Assembly: GCA_024276995.1 (NCBI GenBank)
Contig: JAJRWB010000021.1
Span: forward strand, 34,417 to 98,416
Direction of reading: 5' to 3'
DNA length: 64,000 bases
Source of the DNA: Candidatus Eiseniibacteriota bacterium
GTDB taxonomy: Bacteria; Orphanbacterota; Orphanbacteria; Orphanbacterales; Orphanbacteraceae
Shown here: in pieces, positions 43,526 to 59,802 of the stretch
How positions within the stretch are numbered: position 1 is the stretch's first letter
How the letters are laid out: the number at the start of each line of letters is the position of its first letter
Made by a program: the position numbers and the translations under genes
The notes under the pieces: model-generated
Database searches by the model: none
Seen by the model: the letters and a program-made list of their open reading frames with translations, nothing else
Told to the model about the DNA's origin: nothing

Positions 43526-44341
43526 GTGGAGTTGAAACCGAATCGGGTGATTCTCCTGGCCGCAGCGGCACTGCTCGTCGCGCCGTCGATTGCGGGCGGA
43601 TTCGACGAGTTCCACGGCGCCGTGGCGGTCCATTCCCCCGACTACGATTCTCTCTTCGCCCTCGCCGTTCCCCTCGATGAATCCGCGGAGGGACGCGCCC
43701 TCGTCGACCGGTGCCTCGCCCGCTACGGCGGCGTGGAGAAGCTGGAGGCCCTCGGCGCTTTCCGGCTCGCCTACCGGGCGAAAACATTCCTGGCACGGGA
43801 CTCTCTCGACGTGATCCGATCGTTCGCCTCCGGTAGGCGCCACTCGATTCACAGGAAAAGCGCGACGGCGAACAAGAGAAGGGTCCTGAACCGGTCGGAC
43901 GCCTGGTTCGACGACGGCGACACGCTCATCGTTCTCGACGACGGACGTTACAAGGCGGAGCTTTTCAGTTACCTCACCCTTGCCATGCCGCTCGCCATAA
44001 CCACCGAGCGGTTCGACTCGATCCGCTACGGCACGCGCGACGGCGATCCGGTCGGCTACATCTACATGACGAAGAACGATTCCCTGATGATCGTGACGGG
44101 GATCGATCCGGCCGATTCGCTGATCAAGTCGTCGGAAGGGGTGATACGGCAGGGGGAGAAGGGTTTCACCTTCATCAACCGCTTCTCGGACCATGAGGAA
44201 CACGGCGGCTACTGGTTCCCGGGGAAGAGGGTGAACATCTCCCTCGGTCTGGAAGTCTCCCGGTCGGTCCTCTCGTCCGTCGAGATCGCCCCCGCTTTCG
44301 CCGAAGACGAGTTTCAGCCTCGCCGGGAGGGGAAGCGATGA
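43526..44341 (+). CDS. Exported protein of unknown function, possibly LolA-like fold
   Basis: 271 residues from GTG 43526 (SD GGAGGAAG). Signal peptide (VILLAAAALLVAPSIAGG). A helix with LVDRCLARYGGVEKLEALG precedes a mainly beta region (FRLAYRAKTFL, KRVLNRSDAWFDDGDTLIVL, GYIYMTKNDSLMIVTG, YWFPGKRVNISLGLEV). This helix-then-antiparallel-sheet pattern is similar to LolA/LppX-like periplasmic proteins. ATGA overlap with the following cytochrome gene. Confidence 0.55.
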   Translation: MELKPNRVILLAAAALLVAPSIAGGFDEFHGAVAVHSPDYDSLFALAVPLDESAEGRALVDRCLARYGGVEKLEALGAFRLAYRAKTFLARDSLDVIRSFASGRRHSIHRKSATANKRRVLNRSDAWFDDGDTLIVLDDGRYKAELFSYLTLAMPLAITTERFDSIRYGTRDGDPVGYIYMTKNDSLMIVTGIDPADSLIKSSEGVIRQGEKGFTFINRFSDHEEHGGYWFPGKRVNISLGLEVSRSVLSSVEIAPAFAEDEFQPRREGKR

Positions 44342-45648
44342 TTCACGGCCGGCGGAGACGGTCCGGCGGGGCATGGTTGGTTCCCCTGGCGGCGCTTCTC
44401 GCGGCGATCTTTCTCGCGTCGCCGGACCGGGCGGCGGCGGATTCGGACGAGGAGGAGGGAGAGAAGAGCTGTCTCGAATGTCACGAGAAGTTTCGGGAGA
44501 GGCTCGCCGGCGAGTTCGATCATGAACCGTTCGAGAAGGGGGAGTGCTACGCGTGTCACCGGTTCCACGGCTTTCGGAACCGCGTGGAGCTGAAGGCGCC
44601 GATCATCGATCTGTGCACCGAGTGTCACGCCGACGTGGCCGAAATGCCCCGCGAGGAGATGCACGAGCCCTTGCTCGAGGACGAAAGCTGCACTCTCTGT
44701 CACGAGATGCACAGCGCCGACAACGCCGAGCTGCTGATCCGCCCGGGCGGAGCCGTCTGCCTCGAATGCCACGACGGGCCGGAAGAGGTCGGCGCCGTTG
44801 TGCACGAGCCTTTCGCGAAGCTCCGGTGCGTCGGTTGCCATGAGCCCCACGGATCGGAATTCGAATCGAATCTCCAGATGCCGGCGGGCTATCTCTGCCT
44901 TTCGTGCCATCCCGGCATCCTTCCCGACGACTCTCCCATGGAGATGCACACAGCCGACGGCGAGAAATCGTGCGAGAACTGTCATTCCCCCCATGGGTCG
45001 GAGACGCCCCGGTTGTTGAAAAACGATATCGTTTCACTCTGCACAGGCTGCCACCGGGAGAAGAGGCTCGGCGAAAGCCTTTCCGAGTACCATTCCGCGA
45101 TTACCGAAGGGAGATGCACCGCCTGTCACGACCCGCACGCGAAACCGGGCGAATCGCTCCTTGCGAAGGAGCCGCCCGACCTGTGCTTCGATTGCCACGG
45201 GGAGATCGAAAAGAGACTCGCCCTCGAGTTTCCCCACGCCGCGGCGGACGACGACTGCCTCAACTGCCACGATCCCCACGGGCGAATCGCGCCCGGCGAA
45301 GAACCGGCGCTCTGTGGCGAGTGTCATGATGTAGGGGAGAAGGAATTCCTCGCCTCCCACGGAGGAAGAGAGCCGTCGCGGTGTGTCATCTGCCATGATC
45401 CTCATGGTTCTACCGACGAGAGGATGCTCCTCGAGGTGCTCCACCCACCTTTCGAGGCGGGGGAATGCGGCGAATGCCATCGCGCCGGAGCGCCGAAATC
45501 GGTCCTCCGGAGAGTCGCCCTCTGCCTCGAGTGCCACGACGCCCCGGAGAAGATCGGCGCCCATTCCGACCGGGAGACGGCCGGTCGAGTCTGTGTCGAC
45601 TGTCACTCGCCCCACGCGGCAGGGAACAGGGCGCTCATTTCCGGCTAA
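44338..45648 (+). CDS. Multihaem c-type cytochrome (17 CXXCH)
   Basis: 436 residues from ATG 44338, overlapping the preceding stop. Sec signal (LAALLAAIFLASPDRAAA). Seventeen CXXCH motifs, all of canonical spacing, many in the form CxxCHDPHG/CxxCHSPHG typical of doubled-CXXCH multihaem proteins. There is no membrane helix beyond the signal, so it is periplasmic or secreted. It ends the five-gene run 40537-45648 with TAA and is followed by an AT-rich regulatory region. Confidence 0.93.
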   Translation: MIHGRRRRSGGAWLVPLAALLAAIFLASPDRAAADSDEEEGEKSCLECHEKFRERLAGEFDHEPFEKGECYACHRFHGFRNRVELKAPIIDLCTECHADVAEMPREEMHEPLLEDESCTLCHEMHSADNAELLIRPGGAVCLECHDGPEEVGAVVHEPFAKLRCVGCHEPHGSEFESNLQMPAGYLCLSCHPGILPDDSPMEMHTADGEKSCENCHSPHGSETPRLLKNDIVSLCTGCHREKRLGESLSEYHSAITEGRCTACHDPHAKPGESLLAKEPPDLCFDCHGEIEKRLALEFPHAAADDDCLNCHDPHGRIAPGEEPALCGECHDVGEKEFLASHGGREPSRCVICHDPHGSTDERMLLEVLHPPFEAGECGECHRAGAPKSVLRRVALCLECHDAPEKIGAHSDRETAGRVCVDCHSPHAAGNRALISG

Positions 45649-45926
45649 TTTGTTGTAATTCAATACAATACGGGATTTGGACGGCGTAAGGGTCTCCCCG
45701 CCCTTCGATCAAGGCTGTAACTGGTTAGGCCGCCGTTGATTAAGAAATTTTAATTGATTAGAGGGTCGTTTTTTCCAGAAAATCATAGCGCCGCAGCCTG
45801 GAATCCGGTAAAATCTACATGTAGCGAAAGGCTGCGAATCCGCCCGGTCGCGGCCGACGTCCGGAAACTCTAATGCGAAGGAAGGCTCCCGGCATGGCCA
45901 GCTCTTTTCACTGCAAAGGTTCGGTA
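45649..45926 (+). promoter_or_regulatory. AT-rich regulatory region before the NHL/cytochrome cluster
   Basis: An AT-rich island in an otherwise GC-rich window. It contains TTGTA-N6-TACAA, a direct repeat TTGATTA at 45736-45742 and 45754-45760 (18-nt period), TAAAAT at 45809-45814 as a possible -10, and right behind it the perfect palindrome CTACATGTAG (45815-45824). These probably form the promoter and operator of the cluster that starts at 45927. Binding factors are unknown. Confidence 0.45.
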
Positions 45927-47492
45927 ATGGAGACCCACCGGAGAACGGGCCGTTCGTTCGGCGTTGCGATCGTCGTGATGATCGCACTCTTGGCTCCCCT
46001 CGCGGCGCACGTCGCTTTCGCCGCGGGGCCGAACCTGATCGCCGCCTTCTTCGTCAAGGGGAAGGTCGGCCTGAAGTGGCAGAAGATGGAAGGCGTCAGC
46101 GAGTACTCGGTGTACCGCAAGGGGATGGACGGCGATTTCGCTTTGATCGGAAGTACCGGTGATGATCACTACTTCGATACCGACGTCATTCCCGGATCGG
46201 CGTACAAGTACAAGATCGGTGCCGCCGGCGCCGACGGGAAGGAACTCTTCTCGAAGGAGAAGAGCGTCACGATTCCCGGCGGCGATATGGGCGCCTTTGA
46301 GCCGCCCACATGGATCGGTTTGAGGATCGATCAGGACAGGATCTTCCTCAACTGGGATCCCACTCCGTCGGCGGTGGCGTACAACATTCTCCGTTCCGAG
46401 ACGCCCGGCGGGGGGTACGAGGTGATCGGTAACTCCCAGGCGTCCAAGTACGCCGACAAGGAGGGGCTCGAGAAGGGGAAGACGTACTATTACGTTCTCA
46501 CGGCGCTGAACCAGGATTTCGAGGAAACCGCCTGGTCTGAAGAGCGGAGCCTCAAGTTCGGTCTTACCCGGGAGGAACTGGCGGCGCTCGAAGCGGAGAC
46601 GAAGAAAATCGTTCTCGAGCCGGTAACAATGAAGGAACTGTTCGAGATTACCGAGGCGGCGGCGAACGACCCGATGAACCAGCCGGCCGACATTTTCGTC
46701 AATTCGGAGGGCCGGATCTATGTGACCGATGCGTTGAACGCCCGGGTGAACTGCTTCGATCCCGCCGGAAAGTTCCTCTTTTCCTTCGGCGAACAGATGG
46801 AAGACGCCGACATTCATGACCCGCCTCCTTCCGCCTTCCTTCTTCCGTTCACGCTGTTCATCGACGGGAAGGACCAGGTATACGTCAGCGATATCAACAG
46901 CCACGATATCCAGGTGTTCGACGCCGACGGCACGTTCATCCGGCGGATCACCGTGCAGGTGGAGGCGGGAAAGGAAGCGCTGAGACCGAACGGCATCCAC
47001 GTACTCGACGACGGCCGGATCGTGATGACCGACACAGGGAACCACCGGTTCCTCATTGTCGATCCCAACGGGAAAATCCTCCTGTCGGTGGGCGAGCGGG
47101 GGAGCGGACCGGGGCAGTTCCTCTTTCCCGACGAACTGACGGTGACGCCGGACAACACGATCTGCGTGGTCGATGTGATCAACTGCAGGATCCAGGAGTT
47201 CGATCTCGACGGAAACTTCATCCGCCAGTTCGGGACGGTGGGACAGACGGCGGGCACCTTCGCCCGGCCGAAGGGGATCACCATCGACGGCAAGGGCCGG
47301 ATCTGGGTATCCGACGGCATGTCGAGCGTGATCCAGGGCTTCACCCCCGAGGGGGAAGTGAAAACCGCGATCGGTACGATGAACGATGAAACGGTGAAGT
47401 TCGTCACCCCCAGAGGAATCTTCTTCAAAGACGGACGGTTCTATGTGGTCAACCGCATACCGAACCGGGTCGTCGTTTACGAGATGAGCTGA
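45927..47492 (+). CDS. Exported protein with FN3-like domains and NHL beta-propeller
   Basis: 521 residues from ATG 45927 (METHRRTGRSFG, SD AAAGG); ATG 45894 is an alternative. Signal peptide to ~31 (LAAHVAFA). Two fibronectin-III-like domains follow (VGLKWQKMEGVSEYSVYRKG; IFLNWDPTPSAVAYNILRSE), then a short helical linker. Six NHL blades fill the C-terminal half (e.g. GRIYVTDALNARVNCFDPAG, GRIVMTDTGNHRFLIVDPNG, GRIWVSDGMSSVIQGFTPEG). NHL proteins of this kind accompany outer-surface cytochromes in several metal-respiring lineages. It is possibly an adaptor or scaffold. Confidence 0.82.
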   Translation: METHRRTGRSFGVAIVVMIALLAPLAAHVAFAAGPNLIAAFFVKGKVGLKWQKMEGVSEYSVYRKGMDGDFALIGSTGDDHYFDTDVIPGSAYKYKIGAAGADGKELFSKEKSVTIPGGDMGAFEPPTWIGLRIDQDRIFLNWDPTPSAVAYNILRSETPGGGYEVIGNSQASKYADKEGLEKGKTYYYVLTALNQDFEETAWSEERSLKFGLTREELAALEAETKKIVLEPVTMKELFEITEAAANDPMNQPADIFVNSEGRIYVTDALNARVNCFDPAGKFLFSFGEQMEDADIHDPPPSAFLLPFTLFIDGKDQVYVSDINSHDIQVFDADGTFIRRITVQVEAGKEALRPNGIHVLDDGRIVMTDTGNHRFLIVDPNGKILLSVGERGSGPGQFLFPDELTVTPDNTICVVDVINCRIQEFDLDGNFIRQFGTVGQTAGTFARPKGITIDGKGRIWVSDGMSSVIQGFTPEGEVKTAIGTMNDETVKFVTPRGIFFKDGRFYVVNRIPNRVVVYEMS

Positions 47493-47577: not shown

Positions 47578-48726
47578 ATGAAGTACATGGTTATTGCACT
47601 CGTCGGTCTGGTCCTGCTCGGGATTCCTGCGGTCGCACTGGCCGGTGTAGCTGGCTCGGATCACGATCTTACGGGATCGGGTGAAAAGCTCTGCTTCGCC
47701 TGCCACATTCCCCACAATGCGCTGGGGGATAAGTTGTGGGCCAGGACACCGAGCGGAACCTTCACGGGTGTCCAGGATCTTTGCTACACCTGTCATGACG
47801 GCGGCGTGACGAGCGTCGGCGTGACCACCGCTTTCAACACCGCCAAGGAGCAGCATAAGAACGTCGGAACGGACTGCTCCGGCGACGGCGCGTGCCATGA
47901 CGTCCACAACCAGAACCCGAACGGGTCGGGCCGCTTCACGGTGGCCGGCGTCACCAAGACGAACGGCAGCTACTGTGAGACCTGTCACGATGCGACGCCG
48001 TTCACAGGCGCGGAGGCGCTCGGCGACCACACCGCCGGGATCACTCACTTCACCAACGGCGGGACGTTCACGTGCAACCAGTGTCACACGCTGCACGGCG
48101 CGACCGCCCAGACCACGAATCCGGCCGGCTTGACGAATCCGATTCTTCTCGCCGACAACCAGCCCGGATCGTACTACGGCGCGTTCTGCATTTCGTGCCA
48201 CAACGGCAGCGCCCCCGCGGCCGGAATCCCCGGCACGGGCGGCCAGAGCGCCAGCGATGTGTGGGATTACGCCGAGGCGACGAACGACGGTTCCGAGTGG
48301 AAGCACCCGACCACGTCGACCACCGGCTCCACGCCCGTGGGCGGCTGCAACAAGTGCCATGACGTGCATGATCCGACGGCCACTGCGTACGGCTACCTGC
48401 TCATGGCGGACAACGCCAACTCGGCGTACTGCCTCTCGTGCCACAGCGCGGCGGGCGCTCCGGCGATCGGCGGGAACAGCCATTACGTCGGCGTTCCGAC
48501 CGACGTGAACATGAACAGCGGCCTTACCCCGGCGCTTCCGTGGGCGAACCAGGTGGACGATGACGGCAACGTCGGTGCCGACTGGGGAACCGCGACGGCG
48601 AATTACATGGCTTGCGAAACGTGCCATTCGGTTCATAAGAACGGTATTCAGACGAACGGCGGATACCTGTTGCGTGACGAAAACGTCAACAACGAAATCT
48701 GCCAGGCGTGCCATACCGCGAACTGA
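47578..48726 (+). CDS. Multihaem c-type cytochrome (9 CXXCH plus one CX5CH)
   Basis: 382 residues, SD GAGGGGG. Signal peptide (LVLLGIPAVALAG). Nine CXXCH motifs and one CX5CH (CSGDGACH near residue 100, preceding DVHN). It is richer in Gly, Thr, Ser and Asn than the two cytochromes upstream, as in secreted cytochromes. Motifs such as CFACHIPHN and CNQCHTLHG supply nearby His ligands. A terminator-like hairpin follows, so it may be a highly expressed mono- or bicistronic unit. Confidence 0.9.
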   Translation: MKYMVIALVGLVLLGIPAVALAGVAGSDHDLTGSGEKLCFACHIPHNALGDKLWARTPSGTFTGVQDLCYTCHDGGVTSVGVTTAFNTAKEQHKNVGTDCSGDGACHDVHNQNPNGSGRFTVAGVTKTNGSYCETCHDATPFTGAEALGDHTAGITHFTNGGTFTCNQCHTLHGATAQTTNPAGLTNPILLADNQPGSYYGAFCISCHNGSAPAAGIPGTGGQSASDVWDYAEATNDGSEWKHPTTSTTGSTPVGGCNKCHDVHDPTATAYGYLLMADNANSAYCLSCHSAAGAPAIGGNSHYVGVPTDVNMNSGLTPALPWANQVDDDGNVGADWGTATANYMACETCHSVHKNGIQTNGGYLLRDENVNNEICQACHTAN

Positions 48727-48811: not shown

Positions 48812-49900
48812 ATGAGAAAACTCGTGACCGCCATGATAATGACAGCTCTTGCACAGGCAGCGTGGGCGGGAGATCCCGGAGTGGAGATTCTCATGCCCCC
48901 CTCGCACGTCGGCACGGCGCGCAGCTTCCTCCACGTAGTCGGGAAAACGGGCGCCCCGGCGGTGGAGGTTCTCCTGAACGGAGAGCATGTGCGCACGGTG
49001 ACGGTCACCGATTCTCTCTTTCATGCGGGTGTATCGTTCGGCTATGGTCTGAACGTGATCTCGGTGTTCGCCGTCCCGGCGGGGGGAAAGGACGTTGTTT
49101 CTTCCGGCGACACCATCGAAGTGATGAGCGCTCCGATGATCTCGAGGGATTACAGGAAGATGTTCGAGTCGTATACGTTCCATGGAAAAACGGTGCGCCG
49201 CGAGTGCTCTTCCTGCCACGCGAAGAGTGGGACGGGCGATTCGAGCGACGAGACCTCGGAATGGTGCTACACGTGCCACGGGTCGATGGAGAAGAATTTC
49301 CGTTCCCACATCGCGAAGGACGACAGGGCGTGCGCCGTGTGCCACACGATCGACCCGGACATGACGCTTGCCGTCTCGGGAGAATACAGCGGCAAGAATC
49401 CGTGCTATTCGTGCCACACCGACAAGATCGGCCAGTTCGCCCGCGACTACATCCACGGACCGGTGGCGGGCGGGACGTGCACGGTGTGCCACGATCCGCA
49501 CGGTTCGGTATTCGACCATAGCCTGATCTCTCCCGTGTCGGTGCTCTGCGCCTCGTGCCATCCGATGGAGGAGGCGTCGGCGCGGAAGACGCAACATAAA
49601 CCGTTCGCCGACGGCAGGTGCAATCTTTGCCACGATCCCCACTCGACGAACAATCGTTGGGTGCTGACCCGGCAGTCGGAGGAACTCTGCCTGAGCTGTC
49701 ACGAGAAGAACGGTACCCTCGACGGGCATCGTCACCCTTACGATGTGAAGCCGACAACGAGCACGGGTCGTTCAATGGAACTGACGGAGAAGGGACTCCT
49801 GGAGTGCCTCTCCTGCCATGAACCTCATTCGACGGACACGCCGCACCTGCTTCGGACGAGCGGGGAGAACACGTGCGGCGGCTGCCACAAGGATCGCTAG
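48812..49900 (+). CDS. Multihaem c-type cytochrome (10 CXXCH) with N-terminal beta domain
   Basis: 362 residues. Signal peptide (MRKLVTAMIMTALAQAAWAG). An N-terminal ~90-residue beta-rich domain (GVEILMPPSHVGTARSFLHV ... VEVLLNGEHVRTV) precedes ten CXXCH motifs. The haem region has TCTVCHDPHGS and CNLCHDPHST triplets. TAG (49898-49900) is followed immediately by the ATG of the next gene in the same frame. The next gene has its own lipoprotein signal, so TAG must terminate here. Confidence 0.9.
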   Translation: MRKLVTAMIMTALAQAAWAGDPGVEILMPPSHVGTARSFLHVVGKTGAPAVEVLLNGEHVRTVTVTDSLFHAGVSFGYGLNVISVFAVPAGGKDVVSSGDTIEVMSAPMISRDYRKMFESYTFHGKTVRRECSSCHAKSGTGDSSDETSEWCYTCHGSMEKNFRSHIAKDDRACAVCHTIDPDMTLAVSGEYSGKNPCYSCHTDKIGQFARDYIHGPVAGGTCTVCHDPHGSVFDHSLISPVSVLCASCHPMEEASARKTQHKPFADGRCNLCHDPHSTNNRWVLTRQSEELCLSCHEKNGTLDGHRHPYDVKPTTSTGRSMELTEKGLLECLSCHEPHSTDTPHLLRTSGENTCGGCHKDR

Positions 49901-50932
49901 ATGAGGACGGACGGACGACAGATCGGATCGGTTCTCGCGGCGACGCTGATCGCGGCGGTGCTCTATTCGGGCTGCTCCTCGGGCGTAAAGCGGACCGGGA
50001 TGCTCGCCTGGCCGCCGCCGCCGGAAAAACCGGTGATCGTCTACGTGGGAAGCATTTATGGAAGCCGGAATCTCGACAGGAGTTTCTTCGGCAGGATGAA
50101 CGATTTCCTCTTCGGCCGCTAGCCCGACCAATCGCTCAGCAAGCCGTACGGAATCGATTACGATGGTTCGTCGAAACTGTTCGTCGCCGACACGGGAACG
50201 AAGAGCGTTGTGGTCATCGACTTCGCAGCGGGAACGATGAAGGACTTCAATTCCCTCGACTCCTACGGTTCTCTCGTCGAGCCGGTGAATGTGGTGGTGG
50301 ACGGGGCCGGCAATGTGTACGTCGCCGACACGAAGCTAGGCCGGATCGCCGTGTTCGACGATGAGTACCGTTTCAGCCGGTTCATCGGCGGCGACGGCGC
50401 GCTGCAAAGTCCCGTCGGCATGGCGCTCGACGAGGATGCCGGACTTCTTTACGTGTCGGACGCGAAGCTCCACGAAGTGAAGGTTTTTTCTCTTGCCGTG
50501 GGTGAACAGGTCGACTCCTTCGGCGGCCGGGGAGACGGCCGGGGCGAGTTCTACCATCCCCTCGGAATCGTCGTCGCCCGAGACACGCTCTACGTCGTCG
50601 ATTCGTTCCACTTCGCCGTGCAGGCGTTCACCCCGCGGGGCGACTACCTGTTCAGCTTCGGACCGACGAGCCAGGGGATCGGTTCGATGGCCCGTCCGCG
50701 CTCGATCGCCGTCGACTCCGACGACCACCTCTATGTGACCGACGCGCTCAACAACAACGTCCAGATGTACGACGAGCAAGGGCGATTGCTGATCCGGTTC
50801 GGATCGGTGGGCGCCTCCCCGGGACAGTTCCGGCTCCCCGCGGGAATCTGCATCACCAAGGACGATCGTATTTACGTAGCCGACTCGATCAATCGACGGA
50901 TTCAGGAATTCCGGTATCTCGCCGGGGGATAG
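49901..50932 (+). CDS. NHL beta-propeller lipoprotein interrupted by an in-frame TAG
   Basis: 343 sense codons, plus a TAG at 50120-50122 that interrupts one continuous frame. The lipobox is AVLYSGC. WPPPPEKPVIVYVGSI is the N-terminal motif usual in NHL proteins next to cytochromes. After the TAG the frame continues without shift through five to six NHL blades (KLFVADTGTKSVVVIDFAAG, NVYVADTKLGRIAVFD, HLYVTDALNNNVQMYDEQG) to TAG 50932. The paralogue at 53770-54762 (330 residues) aligns across the gap: GKLKRIIAGRSDRDLVGLP versus GRMNDFLFGR-TAG-PDQSLSKP. It is therefore one gene, with either a nonsense mutation or amber read-through. Confidence 0.75.
50120..50122 (+). other. In-frame amber codon in NHL lipoprotein gene
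   Basis: TAG is in frame with 49901 and with the downstream NHL blades. The paralogue has a polar residue at the aligned position. A single-base change from AAG, GAG or CAG would create it. Confidence 0.8.
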
Positions 50933-50951
50933 AGAGAGGAAGGGACACGAT

Positions 50952-51620
50952 ATGGGCAGAAGATGGACCGCGCTGGTGATCCTGGCCCTCATGACCGCGG
51001 CATTCGGGGCGGAGGGGGGCGTGAGCCAGACGAAGCATAATTTCAGCTCGCCCACCCAGAGTCCGAACGCGTTCTTCTGGGGGACGCGGCAGGTGTGCGT
51101 GTTCTGTCATGCCGTACACAACGCCGATCCGACGGTGGGACAGCTGTGGAACCATGAAACGAACCAAGCCCAGCCGTACACGATGTACACGTCGCCCACC
51201 ATGGACATGACCATGGCGTCGACGCCGCACAACGGCTCGCTCATCTGCCTTTCGTGCCACGACGGCACGATCGCCATCAATTCGCTCAGCAACCTTCCCG
51301 GGCCGGAAGGCGCGGGGAATTACGGAACGCCCGGAGGGGGCGCTCTCGACGGATCGGGACGGTTGAGTAGCACGTCGGACGCCTACGTGGGCACCGACCT
51401 GTCGAACGACCACCCGGTCGGTATCACGTACGATTCGAGCAAGGATCCCGACTTCGTTCCCAAGACGGGGAACAGTGCGGCGTATCCCGATAAACTTCTC
51501 TACCAGGGGATGTACGTGGAATGCACGTCGTGCCACAACCCTCACGACGACACGTATTCCAATTTCCTGGTGGAATCGAACGACGGTTCGGCACTCTGCC
51601 AGAGATGCCACCAGAAGTGA
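50952..51620 (+). CDS. Tetrahaem c-type cytochrome (first of a paralogous pair)
   Basis: 222 residues, SD AGGAAGGG, signal peptide (LVILALMTAAFGA). Four CXXCH motifs: CVFCHAVHN, CLSCHDGTIA, CTSCHNPHD, CQRCHQK. The N-terminal pattern SQTKHNFSS ... CVFCHAVHN ... LWNHET ... MYTSPTM is shared with the gene at 54759-55412. This family of small tetrahaem proteins occurs beside porin-type conduits and surface cytochromes. It is placed between an NHL lipoprotein and the predicted outer-membrane barrel, so a periplasmic or barrel-embedded electron carrier is likely. Confidence 0.88.
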   Translation: MGRRWTALVILALMTAAFGAEGGVSQTKHNFSSPTQSPNAFFWGTRQVCVFCHAVHNADPTVGQLWNHETNQAQPYTMYTSPTMDMTMASTPHNGSLICLSCHDGTIAINSLSNLPGPEGAGNYGTPGGGALDGSGRLSSTSDAYVGTDLSNDHPVGITYDSSKDPDFVPKTGNSAAYPDKLLYQGMYVECTSCHNPHDDTYSNFLVESNDGSALCQRCHQK

Positions 51621-51630
51621 TGAGAGAAGC

Positions 51631-53757
51631 GTGAAAACGGTTCGCGTCCATTCGATGTCCTTCCTCCTCGCGCTCGCGTTCCTCGCCGCGGCGACGCCGG
51701 CGATCCGCGCGCAGGACGGAGTGAAGGTGTCGGGCGAAATCGGTGTCGACATCGAGAACTACCGGTTCCGCAACACCCTGACCAACAACGGGCGGGACTA
51801 CTCGGTTCGCAGAAGCATTTCAAATCACTTCCTCGACCTCAACATGACCGGTCCGTTGAAGACGGCGCGATTCGCCGAGTACATGCTCCAGGCGACCCTT
51901 TCGGGCACCTACGTCCAGGCGAACAGCGAAGCGGGTGAGCACGACTTGTATATCAAGCCCACGATTCCGCGGTATGGTGCGGCGCTTTCGATTTTTCCCG
52001 CCCGCCGCTATCCCCTGCGGCTCCACTACAGCAAATCGCTCGAACACGCCGTGTTGTACGAACCGAACAATAGGACCGAGACCGACCTGATCAGCCCCGA
52101 ACTCGCGGTGGTGAGACGCTACGATTCGGATCTCAAGTCGTACGGCGCCATGTGGAAGATGGCGTTCAACGAGCGGGTGAATCTCACGACGGAATACAAG
52201 AACGATGAGAACGATGTCCTCCGGCAGTACGACTTCGGAGAGAACGACGATATCTGGGTCGATTTCGCCACCGTGCGGCCCAACCCGATCGACCCGGTCC
52301 ATACGATCCAAGTGACGAACACCATCGACAACGACACGGTTATCATCTTCGTCGATCTCAACATGGTCGACTCCCTCGCGCCGGGGGCGAGCCTCAGCTT
52401 CGAACTCGATGCCGGCGATCACCAGGTGGAGTTCATCCCCCTTCGCTTCAATCCGTACCGGACCACGATCAACGTCGACGGCGATATGACATGGAAGATC
52501 ATCCACAACGCGCCGCTCGGATCGAACGATATCCGCCAGACCACGGAGGGGGGAACGGGAACCCTTCGCATCGGCAACGGAACGGACAAGTTCCTGAATG
52601 AATCGTATTTCGAGATGAGCGCGGCTGAGGAGGGAATCCAGAATACCGTCACCGACCTCGTCACGATCTCGAACAGCGCGAGCTACCGTTTCAACAGGGA
52701 AAGCTCCCTTCGGATGCTCACCACGTACAACAAGAACGACGCCGTTATCGATACGATCTCCACGCAGCTGACGAAGGCCTTCCTGAACCAGACCGATTTT
52801 CGATGGGGGATCCGACGGGGGTTCAATACGGGTCTCACCTATGCCTATACGAAGACGCAGTCGAAGACCGACGTGGATGACTTCAACAGCATCACGAACA
52901 TGTTCAGCAACATGAACTCGCTTCCCATCAAGCGGATCAACTGCAATCTGGAATGGAAGAACACCGCGACACTGCTCAAGGACAACCGGGGCTATGTGAA
53001 CGATCAGTATGTAACCGACCTGACATATCGGTTCAATTTCCGCAAGGCGGGGATGACCTGGGACCCGAAGCACCAGGCGAAGTACACATACAACGTGCAG
53101 AAGGGTCCGGACAAGAAGGCGAACGAGTTCGAGGACAGGGTCGCCCTGTCGGGAGACAGGCCAACCCTCTGGAAGCTCGGCCAGCTGCGCGTGAAGCTGG
53201 AACACAACTACAGGAAGCGGGTCGTCGACGGCGAAGACGATATAATCATCAAGTATTTCGGCGAAATGTCGCTGACGAAGAAATTCGGGCGCAACTACCG
53301 CCTCCTGTTCCTGACGAATCACGAGGATCAGAAGTACGGCGGTTCGGTTCCCGTGTCCGGCGGGAACACGACACAGACGAACCCGGCCCGGGAAGACCAG
53401 ATTCGGCATACATACAAGATCGACATGATGGCGACCCCCGGGGCATCGCTCAGTTACGGTGCCAACGCGATGGTGATCACCCAGAACGATTCGAAAATCA
53501 CCCGCTACGGTGCGTCGGTCAACGCCGTGATTCCGAAGATCAACCTGCCGTTCCGGTCGTTTTTCATCAGCGAGATCCGGGACCTCGAGGGTCTTCCTTC
53601 ACAGGTGCAAACGTCGGTGGAAGCGAGAGTCAATTACCGGCTGAGACAGATCACCATGACCCTCGGCTACGCCTATTTTCACGAAAAACTGCTTACGGAA
53701 ACGTACGGAGTTCACGAGATACGAGGAAAGATATCCCGGCAATTCGGCCTGATCTAG
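51631..53757 (+). CDS. Predicted outer-membrane beta-barrel of a cytochrome conduit
   Basis: 708 residues from GTG 51631, 11 nt after the tetrahaem gene. Signal peptide (LLALAFLAAATPAIRAQD). No transmembrane helix. The mature part is built of alternating amphipathic strands with aromatic girdle residues and long polar turns (e.g. ARFAEYMLQATLSGTYVQAN, VNLTTEYKNDENDVLRQYD, RQITMTLGYAYFHEKLLTE). This is the profile of large MtrB/PioB/OmbB-like porins, although sequence identity to them cannot be judged here. Flanked on both sides by tetrahaem cytochromes and NHL proteins, it is the best candidate for the outer-membrane sheath of an electron conduit. TAG stop. Confidence 0.72.
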   Translation: MKTVRVHSMSFLLALAFLAAATPAIRAQDGVKVSGEIGVDIENYRFRNTLTNNGRDYSVRRSISNHFLDLNMTGPLKTARFAEYMLQATLSGTYVQANSEAGEHDLYIKPTIPRYGAALSIFPARRYPLRLHYSKSLEHAVLYEPNNRTETDLISPELAVVRRYDSDLKSYGAMWKMAFNERVNLTTEYKNDENDVLRQYDFGENDDIWVDFATVRPNPIDPVHTIQVTNTIDNDTVIIFVDLNMVDSLAPGASLSFELDAGDHQVEFIPLRFNPYRTTINVDGDMTWKIIHNAPLGSNDIRQTTEGGTGTLRIGNGTDKFLNESYFEMSAAEEGIQNTVTDLVTISNSASYRFNRESSLRMLTTYNKNDAVIDTISTQLTKAFLNQTDFRWGIRRGFNTGLTYAYTKTQSKTDVDDFNSITNMFSNMNSLPIKRINCNLEWKNTATLLKDNRGYVNDQYVTDLTYRFNFRKAGMTWDPKHQAKYTYNVQKGPDKKANEFEDRVALSGDRPTLWKLGQLRVKLEHNYRKRVVDGEDDIIIKYFGEMSLTKKFGRNYRLLFLTNHEDQKYGGSVPVSGGNTTQTNPAREDQIRHTYKIDMMATPGASLSYGANAMVITQNDSKITRYGASVNAVIPKINLPFRSFFISEIRDLEGLPSQVQTSVEARVNYRLRQITMTLGYAYFHEKLLTETYGVHEIRGKISRQFGLI

Positions 53758-53769
53758 GCGGGGAAGACG

Positions 53770-54762
53770 ATGTTTACAAGAGCAGGCATCATGATGATCA
53801 CGGCACTCGTCACGGCCGTCCCGGCGAAACCGCCCGCGGCGGAAGGAACGATCGCCTGGCCGGCGCCGCCGGCGGAAGCGAGAGTGGAGTACGTGGGGGT
53901 TGTGGACTGCAAGGATCTCCGGTTCGATGCCGGCTTCTTCGGCAAGCTGAAACGGATCATCGCCGGCAGGTCGGACCGGGACCTCGTGGGACTGCCCTTC
54001 GATATCGTCGTGTCGGGCGGCTCGATCTTCCTGACATGCCGGGATCTGCCCGCACTGGTGGAAATCGACAGGAAAAAGCTGACATACAAGTTGCATGAAA
54101 GCCCGGATATCCCTTGCGTGAGTCCGGTGGCGCTTTGCGACAGGGACGGCGTCGTCTACGTTTCCGACAGCGGCGCCGCGACCGTTTATCGCTACACCGG
54201 TAAAGGGGAACTCCAACCGTTCATTGCCGAAGGTCTCGTGCGCCCCACGGGGATCGCGTGGGAAGAGGACGGCGAACGGTTCTATGTCGTCGACACGGGG
54301 GATCATTCGGTCAAGGTGTTCGATCGTGATGGGAGCGCCGTCGATACGATCGGCGGTGTGAACAGTCCCGTCCGCTTCCACTTTCCCACGTTTGCCGCCG
54401 TTGCGGCCGGAGGCGATCTCCTGGTGAACGATGCGCTGAACTATTCGATCCGGCGGTTCGACAGCGGCGGGAAGGTGGTCGGCGCCTTTGGACGGGAAGG
54501 GGACGGCCCCGGATCGTTCGCCCGTCCGAAGGGGATCGCTCTCGACAGCGACGATCATGTCTACGTGGTGGACAACCTGTTCGACAACATACAGGTGTTC
54601 GACCGGGACGGGCGGCTCCTCGTGGTGATCGGCGCACGGGGACAGCGGCGCGGCGAGTTCTGGTCGCCCGGCGGGATCGACATCGTGGACGACACGATCT
54701 ACGTGGCGGATACATTCAACAACAGGATTCAGGTGCTCCACTACATGGGGGGCGGGTCATGA
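53770..54762 (+). CDS. Exported NHL beta-propeller (paralogue of the amber-interrupted lipoprotein)
   Basis: 330 residues, SD GGGGAAG. Signal peptide without lipobox (MMITALVTAVPAKPPAAEG). WPAPPAEARVEYVGVVDCKD is the shared N-terminal motif. Six NHL blades follow (VVYVSDSGAATVYRYTG, RFYVVDTGDHSVKVFDRDG, HVYVVDNLFDNIQVFDRDG, TIYVADTFNNRIQVLHYMG). It overlaps the next tetrahaem cytochrome by 4 nt (ATGA), as its paralogue precedes the other tetrahaem gene. It probably binds or positions cytochromes at the outer membrane. Confidence 0.85.
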   Translation: MFTRAGIMMITALVTAVPAKPPAAEGTIAWPAPPAEARVEYVGVVDCKDLRFDAGFFGKLKRIIAGRSDRDLVGLPFDIVVSGGSIFLTCRDLPALVEIDRKKLTYKLHESPDIPCVSPVALCDRDGVVYVSDSGAATVYRYTGKGELQPFIAEGLVRPTGIAWEEDGERFYVVDTGDHSVKVFDRDGSAVDTIGGVNSPVRFHFPTFAAVAAGGDLLVNDALNYSIRRFDSGGKVVGAFGREGDGPGSFARPKGIALDSDDHVYVVDNLFDNIQVFDRDGRLLVVIGARGQRRGEFWSPGGIDIVDDTIYVADTFNNRIQVLHYMGGGS

Positions 54763-55412
54763 CGACACGAACGGCCGTGATCGCATCGATCGTTCTGATG
54801 GCGGCGCCGCTGTGGCTCGGGGCGGCCCGAAGGACGTCGATTCTCGAGACCAAACACAACCTTTCGTCATCCGGCAAAGGGGAAATCAAGGCGCTCAGCG
54901 AGACGAGGGTGTGCATCTTCTGCCACAGCAGTCACAACACCTCCGCCGAGGGTCCCCTCTGGAACCACGAAACGACGGCGCCGGGCAAGTTCAAAATGTA
55001 CGAACGCTCGACGATGGAGGCGAAACCGGAGCAGCCGAACGGCGCCACGAAGCTTTGCCTCTCGTGCCATGACGGAACGATCGCCGTGGGCGCCGTTCTC
55101 GGCCATGGCGGGCCGATCGCCATGAAGAGCACGGGCGCCTCCGGCGAGATTCCGGCGGGGAAAAAGAGCAGTCTCGGCACCGACCTGAGCGGAACCCATC
55201 CGGTGTCGTTCAAGTACGGACAGGATCTCGCCGTGGGAAAGACGAATCTCCGCTGGCCGCCGGTCGATCCGGAAGGCGACGTGAAGCTCGACGCGGACGG
55301 CTACGTGCAGTGCACGATCTGTCACGATCCCCACGGTTCCCGTTCCGACAAGTACCCCTTCTGGCAGAAGTCAACATTCGGCCAGGTATGCCAGGTGTGT
55401 CATGCGTATTAA
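54759..55412 (+). CDS. Tetrahaem c-type cytochrome (second of the pair)
   Basis: 217 residues from ATG 54759. Signal peptide (VLMAAPLWLGAA). Four CXXCH: CIFCHSSHN, CLSCHDGTIA, CTICHDPHG, CQVCHAY. LETKHNLSSSG and LWNHETTAPGKFKMY match the first tetrahaem copy. It ends in TAA and overlaps the following cytochrome by 11 nt. Confidence 0.9.
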   Translation: MTTRTAVIASIVLMAAPLWLGAARRTSILETKHNLSSSGKGEIKALSETRVCIFCHSSHNTSAEGPLWNHETTAPGKFKMYERSTMEAKPEQPNGATKLCLSCHDGTIAVGAVLGHGGPIAMKSTGASGEIPAGKKSSLGTDLSGTHPVSFKYGQDLAVGKTNLRWPPVDPEGDVKLDADGYVQCTICHDPHGSRSDKYPFWQKSTFGQVCQVCHAY

Positions 55413-56487
55413 CGGTGAATGGAAAGAGATCGCGATTCCCGTCGCCGGCGCGGCGCTCGTTTTCCTCCTTCTCGCCCCGCGTGCGACCGCCCACGTGGAC
55501 AGCCCGCTCCTCACCGATGAGTGCGGTTCGTGCCATGTCGGCCACGGTGTGCCGGGCGAACCGATGCTCGAAGCGTCGGAAGAGGAGATGTGCTATCTCT
55601 GCCACGGTTCGACGGAGAAGGTGAACAAGATGAAATCGAAAGGGAGGCTCTCCCCTTCGGCCGATCCCGCCGACATCGAAAGAGAGTTCGAGAAGCCGTA
55701 CCGCCATCCGGTGAGGGAGGGCACGGGCCATAGACCGGATGAACGGCTTCCCGCCTGGACGAACGCCAAGGCGAATCACGCGTAGTGCGTCGACTGTCAT
55801 AACCCGCACCAGCGCGCCGGCACCGCGAAGAACGGCTTCCACGATGTTTGCGGCTACAGCGTGAGCGGCCAGTATCTCGAGAGAAGCCTCAGGGAGTATG
55901 AAATCTGCCTCAAGTGCCATGCCGGCGAGGAGAATTCGAAGATGACGGGCCGAAAACTGATCGATCAGTTCTCCCCGGCTGCCCGGTCGCAGCATCCCGT
56001 TACGAAGGTCGCGTCGGGCGAGAAGCTTCCGAGCCTCTCCTCCGCCCTGGGACAGGGGCAGACGCTCCTGTGCAGCGACTGCCACACGAACGACGATCCC
56101 GACGGTCCGCGCGGTCCCCACGGTTCGAACAACCGCTTCCTCTTGAGCGGCAATTACGATATCGACGAATACGCCGACGAGAGTCCTTTCGCCTACGAGT
56201 TCTGCTATTCGTGCCACGACAGGACGAGCATCCTGTCGGACGAGAGTTTCCCGTGGCACAGCGAACATATCTTGGGCGATCCGATCGAAGGCCGGTCGGG
56301 CACCTCGTGCTACACCTGCCACGCTTCCCACGGTTCGAGTCAGAACGAGCATCTGCTCGAGTTCAACCAGGCGGCGGTGGAGGGGGATTAGAAAACACTC
56401 CAGGTTCTCTACCGGTCCACGGGGAGTGGATCGGGTGAATGTTACATGAACTGTCACGGTTACGATCACAGTCCGGCGAAGTACTGA
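55402..56487 (+). CDS. Multihaem c-type cytochrome with two in-frame TAG codons
   Basis: One frame from ATG 55402 to TGA 56487 (361 positions), interrupted by TAG at 55783-55785 and 56389-56391. Signal peptide (AALVFLLLAPRATAH). Haem motifs before the first TAG are CGSCH and CYLCH. Directly after it come CVDCHNPHQ, then CLKCH, CSDCH, CYSCH and CYTCH. After the second TAG the frame still encodes YRSTGSGSGECYMNCHGYDH (CX3CH) before TGA. Coding character, haem motifs and frame are all preserved past both ambers. Homologues of this type usually have a charged residue before CVDCHNPH. It is either a recent pseudogene or is decoded by amber suppression. About eight haems if full length. Confidence 0.75.
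55783..55785 (+). other. In-frame amber codon immediately before a haem motif
   Basis: The sequence reads ANHA-TAG-CVDCHNPHQ in one frame. Termination here would remove six of eight haem motifs. Confidence 0.8.
56389..56391 (+). other. Second in-frame amber codon in the same cytochrome
   Basis: The sequence reads AAVEGD-TAG-KTLQVLYRSTG and then a CX3CH motif, before a TGA at 56485-56487. Confidence 0.75.
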
Positions 56488-56507
56488 CAACACAAAACGG
56501 TGACCCG

Positions 56508-58043
56508 ATGAAGAAGCAACACGAAATGACAGCAGCGACACTACTGACTTCCATTTTCCTCCTGTTTTCGGCTGCGGCGCCGATCCGGCCCGCCGGGGCG
56601 TTCGACGCGAGAGAGGCGGGCGAGATCCGCGAGGGACTCCGCGCACCGACGTCGATCGACGTGAGCGGCGACAGGATCGCGCTCCTCGAGCCCTTTTTCG
56701 GGAGAATCCTGGTGTACACCCCGTCCGGGAGAATCGACCGGCGTGTCGACTTTCGGGGGGACGCCGTATCTCTCGCCCGCATCACGGGGGCGGAGTATCT
56801 CTTCTGCGACAGGAAAAGCGGTGCCGTCCGCCTGATCAACGTCGACACGGGCGCGCAGAGAGTCTTTTTCGACGGCGGGGCGGCGGGGATCGATCCGGTC
56901 GATCTGATCGTCCGGGATGGGGAATGCCTGATTCTCGACGGGAGCGGGAGGGCGATCGTGACGACCGACCGGTCGGGCGCCGTGACCGGGACGATGATCC
57001 CCGAGCTTCCCTCGGGCGTGATGCCCGGGGCGGTGACCTCCTTCGCGTTCGACCCTGCGCGCGATCGTTTTCTCCTCTTCGACCAAGTGAACAGCCGGCT
57101 GCTCCTTTTCCGTTCCGATGGGCGATACGAGGGAACGTTCTGCTCCTTCGGCGCCGCGGACGGCACGGTGAGCCGGGGCGGAGAAATCGCCTGCGACGAA
57201 GACGGGTTCGTCTATGTGGCCGATCGTTTCCAGGGCCGGATCGCCGTGTTCGATCGGGCGGGCCGGTTCGCGGGGAACATCGGCGGCGCCGCATCGGGCG
57301 GGGCGCGGTTCGCCAATCCCGCCGGCGTCGCGCTCGACCGGAATCTCCTTTACGTCGTCTCCACCGAGAGCGGATCGGTCGGGATCTTCTCGGTCCGCAA
57401 GGACGCCGCGGAAGGAGCCGCCTCCGCCGCTTCAACCGTTGCGCCCGTATCCAACGATACGGTCGATGTCGCCACAGTCGAGTTCGTCGCCCGCCTCGAC
57501 GTACCTGTCGATCGCGTCGCCGCGTCGCTCGTCGATATCGAAATCGCGTCCGCCGCCGATTCGGCGACGATCGTGTCCGGGGCGGTCGGTCTCGCTCTGG
57601 CGGAGATCGCCGGCGATGGCGGCGGGGGAGACGTGCTGATTCGCTGGACCCCCGATACGCCGCTCACCGGCGGGATGCCGTATACGTGGCGTGTCCGGGT
57701 GGGGATGGAAGAGGAGCCGGGGGAGTGGTCGAAACGGGAGCGATTCCATGCGGGAAGCCTGTGGCGCGAATACATCCTCGAGCAGAATATTCCGAACCCG
57801 TTCAACCCTGTGACGACCATCTCGTTCATCCTGCCTGAAACCGCCGACGCATCGCTGGTGATCTATAACCTGTCGGGAAGGGAGATCTGGAGCCGGTCCT
57901 TCGGGGCGATGTCGCCCGGGCCGCACCAGGTGGAATGGAACGGCACCGATGCCGATGGTAATCATGTAGCGTCGGGCGTCTATTTCTTTCGGCTCACGGC
58001 GGGCGAATTCAGTCGGGCGCGCAAGATGGTCCTCGCGAGGTGA
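56508..58043 (+). CDS. Exported NHL-type beta-propeller with C-terminal sorting module
   Basis: 511 residues from ATG 56508, 20 nt after the cytochrome TGA. Signal peptide (SIFLLFSAAAPIRPAGAF). A beta-propeller spans ~30-310 (RIALLEPFFGRILVYTPSG, FVYVADRFQGRIAVFDRAG). A beta domain of FN3/Ig type follows (~330-430). The C-terminal FlgD-like sorting module reads IPNPFNPVTTISFILPE ... GTDADGNHVASGVYFFRL. It is the only NHL protein of the cluster with this module, so it may be exported and fixed to the surface by the same route as the nuclease and glycosidase. TGA stop. Confidence 0.83.
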   Translation: MKKQHEMTAATLLTSIFLLFSAAAPIRPAGAFDAREAGEIREGLRAPTSIDVSGDRIALLEPFFGRILVYTPSGRIDRRVDFRGDAVSLARITGAEYLFCDRKSGAVRLINVDTGAQRVFFDGGAAGIDPVDLIVRDGECLILDGSGRAIVTTDRSGAVTGTMIPELPSGVMPGAVTSFAFDPARDRFLLFDQVNSRLLLFRSDGRYEGTFCSFGAADGTVSRGGEIACDEDGFVYVADRFQGRIAVFDRAGRFAGNIGGAASGGARFANPAGVALDRNLLYVVSTESGSVGIFSVRKDAAEGAASAASTVAPVSNDTVDVATVEFVARLDVPVDRVAASLVDIEIASAADSATIVSGAVGLALAEIAGDGGGGDVLIRWTPDTPLTGGMPYTWRVRVGMEEEPGEWSKRERFHAGSLWREYILEQNIPNPFNPVTTISFILPETADASLVIYNLSGREIWSRSFGAMSPGPHQVEWNGTDADGNHVASGVYFFRLTAGEFSRARKMVLAR

Positions 58044-58052
58044 TGGAGTGAC

Positions 58053-58769
58053 ATGATGAAGAAACGGAACATAGTCGTCCTGGCGGGGATCGCGGCGATC
58101 CTGGTCGGTCACACCGCCGTCGTCGCGGCGGACGACCCTCACGGCGCGGCGAACAGCATCAACTGCGACCAGTGCCACATCACCCACGGTACGCTCGGCG
58201 AGATCCTGGTGAATTCCGCCGATTCCCTCGTGTCGACCCTCTGTCTTTCGTGCCACACCCCGGGGGGATGGGCCGGAATGACGCTCGAACTCTCGTCCTC
58301 GCAAAGAGCGCAACCGGGCGTTTCGGGAACGTCCCACGGCTGGGATGCAGCGGCGCGGAACGCGGCGGTCGGCACACTCCCCCCGCAGACGACGGCGCTT
58401 CTCGAGCACCTGTCGGCGGACAGCACGGTCACGTGCGCCACATGCCACGATCCTCACAACAACACGGTGTCTCCCTTCCTGAGGCTCGACAACTCGGCGA
58501 ACGCCCTCTGCCTCGATTGCCACAGGCAGAGGAATATCAGTTCGGTGAAAACATACACGGGAAGCGATCTCTCCCACCCGGTGGGCATCGCTCTCCCCTC
58601 CACGGCGACGTTCCACAATCCTCCCCTCGACACCGACGGCAATCCGCAGCCCTCGGACGGAAACACGACGAACGACTATGTCTTCGGCACCGGCGGGACC
58701 GTGATGTGTACGTCATGTCACGGGATTCATTACACCGATTCGAATTCGGCCACCGTGGACGGACCCTGA
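58053..58769 (+). CDS. Pentahaem c-type cytochrome
   Basis: 238 residues. Signal peptide (VVLAGIAAILVGHTAVVAAD). Five CXXCH: CDQCHITHG, CLSCHTPGG, CATCHDPHNN, CLDCHRQ, CTSCHGIH. It is last of the rightward genes of the locus and 9 nt after the sorting-module propeller, so co-transcribed. It converges with another cytochrome. Confidence 0.9.
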   Translation: MMKKRNIVVLAGIAAILVGHTAVVAADDPHGAANSINCDQCHITHGTLGEILVNSADSLVSTLCLSCHTPGGWAGMTLELSSSQRAQPGVSGTSHGWDAAARNAAVGTLPPQTTALLEHLSADSTVTCATCHDPHNNTVSPFLRLDNSANALCLDCHRQRNISSVKTYTGSDLSHPVGIALPSTATFHNPPLDTDGNPQPSDGNTTNDYVFGTGGTVMCTSCHGIHYTDSNSATVDGP

Positions 58770-58838: not shown

Positions 58839-59435
58839 CTAGAACATCTCCGAATGACAACGCTTGCAGAGCGCCTGGCTCTCGGTCTGCAACAGTTTCG
58901 GCTCGGCCGGGTTGTGCACCGAGTGGCACGAGGAGACGCACGTCATTTCGGCGCCGGTGAGGTTGTCGATCACCCCCGGTCCCACAGGATGGGAGCGGCC
59001 GAGTTCGCCGCTTCCATGGCATGCGTTCGAGCACAGGGCGATCTCCGTCGATCGGAGGCGCGGACCGGCCGACGTGCCGTGGGCATCGTGACACCGCGTA
59101 CACGAAAGGTCCCCATGCGCCGCGAGAGCCTGGAAAGCCGGATTCTGTTCGGTGTGGCAGAAGAGGCACGTTTCATTGTCATCGAGGGTGGAAATCACGT
59201 AGTTCCCCGCCGACACGATCCCTTCATGGCAGAAGACACAGTCGGAGGCCGACGAGAGATGGGCCTTCGCGTCTTTCCCCGTGGCGGTGAAATGGCACGA
59301 CGTACAATTCGTGTCTGTCGTGTGCGGGGGCGCCGCCCCCGCCGATGTCGGGAGGAGAAGGAAGGCGCCGAATGTCCCGACGAGGGCCAAAAGGTACCGG
59401 AACGTTGTGTGCGGGAGTGTGATGCGCATGTTCAT
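58839..59435 (-). CDS. Multihaem c-type cytochrome (5 CXXCH plus two CX3CH)
   Basis: 198 residues from ATG 59435 (SD GAGGAA). Signal peptide (FGAFLLLPTSAGAA). CTSCH, CVFCH, CLFCH, CTRCHDAHG, then CSNACHG and CVSSCHSVH (both CX3CH), then CKRCH. TAG stop. It is read opposite to the main cluster from its own promoter (59605-59577). Confidence 0.9.
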   Translation of the reverse strand: MNMRITLPHTTFRYLLALVGTFGAFLLLPTSAGAAPPHTTDTNCTSCHFTATGKDAKAHLSSASDCVFCHEGIVSAGNYVISTLDDNETCLFCHTEQNPAFQALAAHGDLSCTRCHDAHGTSAGPRLRSTEIALCSNACHGSGELGRSHPVGPGVIDNLTGAEMTCVSSCHSVHNPAEPKLLQTESQALCKRCHSEMF

Positions 59436-59802
59436 GGTATTCCTCTGCGGCGGGGATCTTCCCCTTCTCGTGGTTCCCCTCTTTCGTTGTGTCAGGAGAC
59501 CGGGTGGCGGCCGGTCGTTCTTCGTGAGGCGGTAGGAGAGCAAATCCCATACCCGCGGGCCGAGCGGCGTCGAAAGTGTATAACCGCATGAATTCGCATA
59601 TGTTACGATTCCGATCCGCCGCAGCCCGCTTTTCGGGATCTTGCAGATTGCGAAAGGAACGTTGTCGATCGGGAAGGAGGGGCGCTTTTCTTTCGAAAGA
59701 AGAAAGGTCCCGCCCGGTACGGGTGATCCTTTCGTGGTGCGCCGCGGGAAAAGAAGAGCGAAACGGGGAAAACGACCGAAAAGGGAGCGTATCGGGGGAA
59801 AC
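59436..59802. other. Intergenic region of 367 nt
   Basis: No coding region. On the minus strand it holds the promoter of the 7-haem cytochrome (59577-59605). Nothing else is recognised. Confidence 0.5.
59577..59605 (-). promoter_or_regulatory. Sigma70-type promoter of the leftward cytochrome
   Basis: On the minus strand TAACAT (59605-59600) and TATACA (59582-59577) with a 17-nt spacer, about 140 nt before ATG 59435. Confidence 0.45.

Follow-up and report, generated by a model that had tools for sequence, protein, structure and literature searches.

A divergent Uet-like porin-cytochrome cluster with OmcE-type tetrahaem cytochromes and paired NHL proteins in a Candidatus Eiseniibacteriota genome

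Related systems

The undecaheme electron transfer (Uet) complex is a predicted complex that was first named in Tenderiales (Ca. Tenderia electrophaga; Eddie et al. 2022, via PMC10734462). As described in PMC10734462, its parts are the undecahaem cytochrome UetJ, the tetrahaem UetA, the trihaems UetDEG, the isomerase UetB, the barrel UetC and the NHL proteins UetHI, with UetA predicted to be extracellular. The complex has also been described in Gallionella and Leptothrix, with UetJ reported for the latter (PMC10734462; PMC13386937). Here a comparable cluster is analyzed, found in a 64,000-nucleotide stretch of DNA (the window) from a Candidatus Eiseniibacteriota bacterium. It encodes an NHL protein (NHL1), a tetrahaem cytochrome (tet1), a 708-residue putative barrel, a second NHL protein (NHL2) and a second tetrahaem (tet2), which is continued by a 7-haem gene (g55) (Table 1).

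A tetrahaem, a beta-barrel, NHL proteins and an undecahaem in one cluster are thus common to Uet and the window, the match being one to the described gene content. The counterpart of UetJ would be tet2 together with g55, split in two genes, the second of which holds two TAG codons. That of UetA would be tet1, which groups with the tetrahaems found upstream in other loci and whose localization is likewise a prediction. The 708-residue barrel corresponds to UetC by its match to the family occupying the equivalent slot, and NHL1 (interrupted by a TAG) and NHL2 correspond to UetHI by clade. The window differs in having a tetrahaem between NHL1 and the barrel and in the MtrA-like 10-haem and 9-haem genes that precede NHL1. 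Judged by gene content, the cluster is Uet-like, a divergent variant of a widespread and hardly studied cluster; it is filed only as Uet-like because no trihaem gene was seen nearby and the match is one to described content.

Other described systems share parts of this set. Undecahaem-centred porin-cytochrome clusters have been noted in metagenome-assembled genomes from caves and, as cited in the same source, in Ca. Dechloromonas occultata (PMC13264449); their likeness is drawn from a brief description. A locus of Geoalkalibacter ferrihydriticus (Ga0056053_02426-02431; PMC12016550) likewise has an OmcE homolog, an MtoA-like cytochrome and two NHL proteins, but its description mentions neither a barrel nor an 11-haem protein. 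The MtrCAB/Mto systems (PDB 6R2Q) resemble the window in having a large barrel near an MtrA-like decahaem (here g48), and Foldseek ranks MtrB first for a model from the barrel family. However, no sequence relation between the window barrel and MtrB was detected, there is no clear MtrC/OmcA-type gene here, and Mtr has neither OmcE-type tetrahaems nor NHL propellers. Another candidate, the Oet conduit known from syntrophic sulphate reducers, was set aside, as its described parts (OetA, OetB, OetI, OmcX and an OmcS-like protein) include no NHL protein or undecahaem.

Gene order and occurrence in other genomes

The five genes all lie on the plus strand and are closely packed, and their coordinates bear out the order given in the original prediction. 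The short motifs on which that prediction had relied are also present, with WPxPPE/A-like N-termini in both NHL proteins (WPPPPEKP in NHL1, WPAPPAEA in NHL2) and TKHN(F/L)SS, LWNHET and CLSCHDGTIA each found in tet1 and tet2. Three of its points had to be amended: NHL1 is not a single open frame, its codon 74 being a TAG that was overlooked; the unit does not end at 55412, since tet2 runs on into the overlapping g55; and the description of the two NHL-tetrahaem pairs as duplicated units is misleading, the NHL proteins falling in separate paralogue clades and the tetrahaems in different old groups (see below).

Table 1. Features of the cluster and its surroundings (positions in the window)
Feature	Description	Position	Strand	Evidence or remark
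NHL1	Propeller lipoprotein, NHL-A (upstream-of-barrel) clade; TAG-interrupted	49901..50932	+	
tet1	OmcE/UetA-type tetrahaem, 4 CxxCH; candidate filament subunit	50952..51620	+	7tfs_A match, tree, histidines
Barrel	708 aa, GTG start, signal peptide; divergent, UetC-like	51631..53757	+	Profile comparison
NHL2	Propeller protein, NHL-B (downstream-of-barrel) clade	53770..54762	+	
tet2	OmcE-like tetrahaem, 4 CxxCH; N-terminal part of split UetJ-like 11-haem protein	54759..55412	+	
g55	7-haem C-terminal part of split UetJ-like protein, own signal peptide	55402..56487	+	
In-frame TAG	NHL1, codon 74	50120-50122	+	Homologs have S, S, K, E
In-frame TAGs	g55	55783-55785 and 56389-56391	+	
g44	17-CxxCH secreted cytochrome, DmsE/MtrA-like repeats; possible periplasmic partner	44338..45648	+	
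g45	Fn3 and NHL propeller protein	45873..47492	+	Position kept in L010 and L011
g47	9-haem cytochrome, OmcE-like N-terminal region	47578..48726	+	Position kept in L010-L012
g48	MtrA-like cytochrome with 10 haems; may thread the barrel	48812..49900	+	Kept in L010-L012
g56	NHL propeller with FlgD-like C-terminal domain	56439..58043	+	
g58	5-haem cytochrome	58053..58769	+	

A check for conserved synteny, as the original prediction had proposed, was run by scanning genomes with a tetrahaem alignment, which returned at least 557 relatives, and 80 loci were fetched and mapped using profiles built from the window genes and their relatives. The loci were picked by tetrahaem alone and therefore the counts of barrels and NHL proteins are not built into the selection. 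The five genes were found to co-occur in relatives. A complete barrel occurs in 61/80 loci and a cut one in a further 8/80; the arrangement NHL-x-barrel-NHL-TET is seen in 44/80, with 39/80 also having an upstream tetrahaem (TET-NHL-x-barrel-NHL-TET). The recurrent cluster consists of a tetrahaem, an NHL protein, usually a pentahaem lipoprotein, a barrel of approximately 680 residues, a second NHL protein and an 11-haem protein that starts with an OmcE-like tetrahaem domain. In most loci the slot between the NHL-A gene and the barrel holds a pentahaem or is empty.

The original prediction knew of no described conduit with the layout seen in the window. Uet has the same kinds of parts, and the exact order of the window (NHL-tet-barrel-NHL-tet-c7) occurs in four further loci (L010, L011, L012, L059), the barrel of L059 being identified via profile comparison (E-value 2e-9). 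The cluster was found in approximately 12 phyla, including Planctomycetota, Verrucomicrobiota, Nitrospirota, Pseudomonadota, desulfobacterial groups and Myxococcota, as well as Bacteroidota and relatives, Calditrichota, Zixibacteria and Acidobacteriota. Binning errors probably account for a few of the phylum labels. A metagenome-assembled genome labeled 'Kerfeldbacteria' (L012) has a Zixibacteria-like copy and one labeled 'Leptolyngbya' (L084) a Planctomycetota-like copy, and both bins are probably contaminated.

Tetrahaem cytochromes and the 11-haem protein

Both tetrahaems are homologous over their full length to OmcE of Geobacter sulfurreducens (PDB chain 7tfs_A), with E-values of 2.1e-24 for tet1 and 1.7e-22 for tet2, and to one another (E-value 2e-31). 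Full-length matches of both were also obtained to a second solved multihaem protein, 9yuq_N. In the 7TFS structure OmcE forms a nanowire, and a histidine from the adjacent subunit ligates one of the haems (PMC12954529). Like OmcE, tet1 and tet2 have four CxxCH motifs, and an alignment of 127 domains shows the full set of eight OmcE ligand histidines in tet1, tet2 and practically all UetA-, UetJ- and tet1-type sequences, with one further OmcE histidine beyond these eight unconserved (the OmcE letters in the alignments are those of the 7tfs_A match to tet2). From their number and conservation we infer that the eight histidines are haem ligands, a set from which the inter-subunit ligand is not singled out. 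The differences are that identity to OmcE is approximately 30% and that the filament is known for OmcE, tet1 being a candidate subunit.

A tree of the tetrahaems places tet1 in a group of 57 rows together with OmcE and the upstream tetrahaems (support 100/96), and tet2 among the N-domains of 11-haem proteins. Taken together, tet2 and g55 align end to end with 11-haem proteins that this cluster encodes in other phyla. In most relatives the two parts form a single fused 11-haem protein; the window and L010-L012 have separate genes for them, of which the second carries a signal peptide of its own. The true end of g55 is the TGA at 56485-56487, and its C-terminus matches those of relatives. In a genome of the same family as that of the window (G004), the 11-haem protein is encoded by one gene of 570 aa, downstream of NHL-c5-barrel-NHL. 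Near one barrel cluster, this genome encodes three tetrahaem domains that resemble OmcE (L007 8501-9139, L007 14722-15420 and L008 7310-9022), one of which is fused to seven further haems.

The closest relatives of OmcE had 51-56% identity to it, in a search of Geobacteraceae genomes from which the G. sulfurreducens OmcE was itself absent. These OmcE-type loci (L119-L126) show the order c9, c8, NHL, OmcE, NHL, followed by a protein of approximately 760 aa that is called barrel-like by its sequence only and had no Pfam match; they adjoin CcsB/CcsA-like genes likely to function in cytochrome c biogenesis. The partnership of NHL proteins with a tetrahaem is therefore common to these loci and the window, but the former have no 11-haem protein and their barrel-like protein is apparently unrelated.

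NHL proteins

NHL1 and NHL2 are related to one another with an E-value of 3e-40. When 64 NHL proteins are placed in a tree, copies upstream and downstream of the barrel separate with a single change, a value as low as this being reached in 0/500 shuffles. NHL1 falls in the upstream clade and NHL2 in the downstream clade, both clades are common to different phyla, and the deepest split is weakly supported. A simple scan for the lipobox motif found it in 41/54 upstream and 32/59 downstream copies. Read from these trees, the two NHL proteins are ancient paralogues and the two tetrahaems have old, separate roles. A local duplication of an NHL-tetrahaem unit is ruled out by the NHL and tetrahaem trees, because the NHL clades and the tetrahaem groups are old and separate.

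The barrel

No Pfam or NCBIfam family match and no solved-structure relative by sequence was found for the 708-residue protein. A profile of it and three close relatives, when compared by hhalign with the 33-member family of the equivalent cluster slot, gave a probability of 97.4 and an E-value of 9e-12 over 558 columns. A member of that family (from L058), modeled by AlphaFold using 60 sequences, is confidently predicted to be a large beta-barrel with some 26 to 28 strands, with a predicted local distance difference test score (pLDDT) of 91.1 and a predicted template modeling score of 0.77. The first-ranked Foldseek match of this model is MtrB of the Mtr complex (E-value 5.6e-10); using VIA-align, the two gave a Z score of 13.5 over 441 residues with a root mean square deviation of 7.0 Å, amid many other barrels. 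The earlier assumption that the 708-residue protein is a barrel is in keeping with these results, and the fold is compatible with an MtrB-like role, of which it is no proof.

Residues 381-446 of the L058 model form a small separate beta region that interrupts the barrel strands and at which L059 has gaps. A motif in this region, GxDYxxxxxG...IxRxxxGxIxxGxTV, is conserved in the wide family, and the region is a possible periplasmic or plug domain.

Putative function of the cluster

Given these data, the cluster is probably a divergent Uet-like porin-cytochrome cluster that encodes a conduit across the outer membrane joined to an OmcE-type filament. This reading is based on the gene content and order, the homology to OmcE with its ligand histidines, the 11-haem protein formed by tet2 and g55, the barrel family, the predicted fold of a relative and the conservation of the cluster. 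The barrel and the MtrA-like decahaem g48 would provide an electron route across the outer membrane, with g48 threading the barrel. The split UetJ-like protein (tet2 and g55, 11 haems) would lie on the outer face, where its OmcE-like part could serve as a base on which tet1 subunits dock and add end to end. The tet1 subunits so joined, as a nanowire or a short stack, may extend to donors or acceptors outside the cell, and the NHL propellers may escort, cap or dock the tetrahaems and so aid assembly. The localization of the proteins and the direction of electron flow are given here as we infer them.

The original prediction already took the genes for a porin-cytochrome conduit, and the barrel family, the co-occurrence of the genes and the adjoining MtrA-like decahaem support a reading of this kind. 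The export, anchoring and charging of cytochrome nanowires have been reviewed as an open question (PMC12307469). The cluster unites an OmcE-type subunit, an 11-haem protein with an OmcE-like start, a barrel and paired NHL proteins, and is conserved in approximately 12 phyla; it is thus a concrete candidate for the base of a nanowire and may show how nanowires are wired to the cell. Judging by where the cluster occurs, tetrahaem wires could be frequent in Planctomycetota, Verrucomicrobiota, Nitrospirota and further groups that are rarely linked to extracellular electron transfer. A wider proposal, which we put forward tentatively and consider rather less likely than not, is that NHL-tetrahaem-barrel-NHL-UetJ is a general machine for assembling and anchoring OmcE-type nanowires. 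In such a machine the OmcE-like domain of UetJ would be a fixed first subunit, connected to the periplasm through the barrel and the 7-haem part. The NHL proteins would be assembly factors, for OmcE of Geobacter as well.

A number of results weigh against a conduit joined to a filament. For none of the proteins of the cluster were data on filaments or on electron transfer found. No 3-haem gene of the UetDEG type was detected in an open reading frame and haem-motif scan of window positions 43-60 kb, though one may be located elsewhere in the genome, and the window has a tetrahaem in the slot where most loci have a pentahaem lipoprotein. The AlphaFold model of the window barrel itself, made from a four-sequence alignment, was uninformative (pLDDT 34.7); because of this poor model, its fold rests on profile homology. 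Many large barrels score structurally like MtrB against the L058 model, MtrB being one among them. Homology of the Geobacteraceae protein of approximately 760 aa to the window barrel family was considered and was unsupported (E-values 0.001 to 0.011, probabilities 4 to 20). Lastly, NHL1 and g55 contain three premature stop codons, all of them TAG with no TGA or TAA, with no frameshift and with conserved sequence continuing beyond each.

The TAG codons raise the prospect, compatible with the function proposed above, that this copy is a decaying relic inactivated by nonsense codons in NHL1 and g55. Recoding of TAG was considered as another explanation and was ruled out: RF1 and RF2 are both present in the genome, no tRNA with a CUA anticodon was among the 43 tRNA matches, and PylS was looked for and was absent. 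TAG terminates many coding-like segments in the sampled genome, and codon-score and homology scans of 330 kb of it, which have weak power, gave no sign of wider TAG readthrough. Because of the presence of RF1 and RF2 and the absence of a CUA tRNA and of PylS, the TAGs are most simply nonsense mutations or assembly errors. The three in-frame stops and the ordinary termination machinery thus favor a relic, against which stand the intact barrel, tet1, NHL2 and tet2 genes, the absence of any frameshift, the conserved sequence past each stop and the possibility of assembly errors. This copy may be partly inactive or decaying; that the cluster as a whole is a relic here is plausible, though we lean against it, and intact copies of the cluster are present in relatives.

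A surface complex with no filament is somewhat unlikely but deserves attention among the other functions that could be envisaged. In such a complex, monomeric OmcE-like cytochromes would surround an 11-haem terminal oxidase or reductase, and the NHL proteins would bind minerals or act as a scaffold. Uet has been discussed, in the descriptions available, as a porin-cytochrome complex for electron uptake during iron or cathode oxidation, and NHL proteins have been suggested as mineral binders (PMC12016550), both of which would suit this arrangement. Homology over the full length to a protein that forms filaments, with every ligand kept, and the presence of the same NHL partners at the OmcE-type loci of Geobacteraceae count against it.

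It is less likely still that the cluster serves secretion, with a usher-like barrel exporting or assembling a tetrahaem filament, the NHL proteins acting as chaperones and electrons crossing the membrane elsewhere. In favor of this, OmcE-type genes occur with barrel-like proteins and NHL pairs in two settings, the fold matches include ushers and other barrels that function in secretion, and a review treats the secretion of cytochrome nanowires as an open question (PMC12307469). However, the adjoining MtrA-like cytochromes and the first-ranked match to MtrB fit conduction equally, and fold likeness among large barrels is unspecific.

In the symmetric conduit of the original prediction, the two NHL-tetrahaem pairs would work on opposite faces of the barrel, one periplasmic and one outer. 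In its favor, two such pairs flank the barrel gene in an order common to L010, L011, L012 and L059, but it is very improbable, given that tet1 and tet2 are both members of the OmcE family, whose proteins are extracellular filament subunits (published UetA being predicted extracellular), that tet2 corresponds to the N-terminal portion of an 11-haem protein, and that the symmetry is not conserved, because the slot between NHL-A and the barrel is mostly a pentahaem or empty.

Neighboring genes

Two of the cytochromes upstream of the cluster resemble MtrA (6r2q_A), namely g48 (E-value 2e-14 over approximately 200 residues) and g44 (E-value 2e-16). Against TIGR03508, g44 scored 180 bits, under the cut-off of 192. 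The g47 protein is above the Pfam cut-off for the MtrC/MtrF domain, yet it has 9 haems and an OmcE-like start, and no NCBIfam MtrC/OmcA match above cut-off was found for it. In the structure table that was used, chain A of 6r2q, which is MtrA of the Mtr complex, is listed as 'Cystathionine beta-synthase'.

Rfam and tRNA scans of the window gave no matches. The C-terminal domain of g56 (IPNPFNPVT...) is as in secreted proteins of the FCB group, and L010-L012 have an NHL gene in the equivalent position. A further multihaem cytochrome with several CxxCH motifs is encoded on the minus strand at 58839-59543 of the window, facing the end of the cluster.

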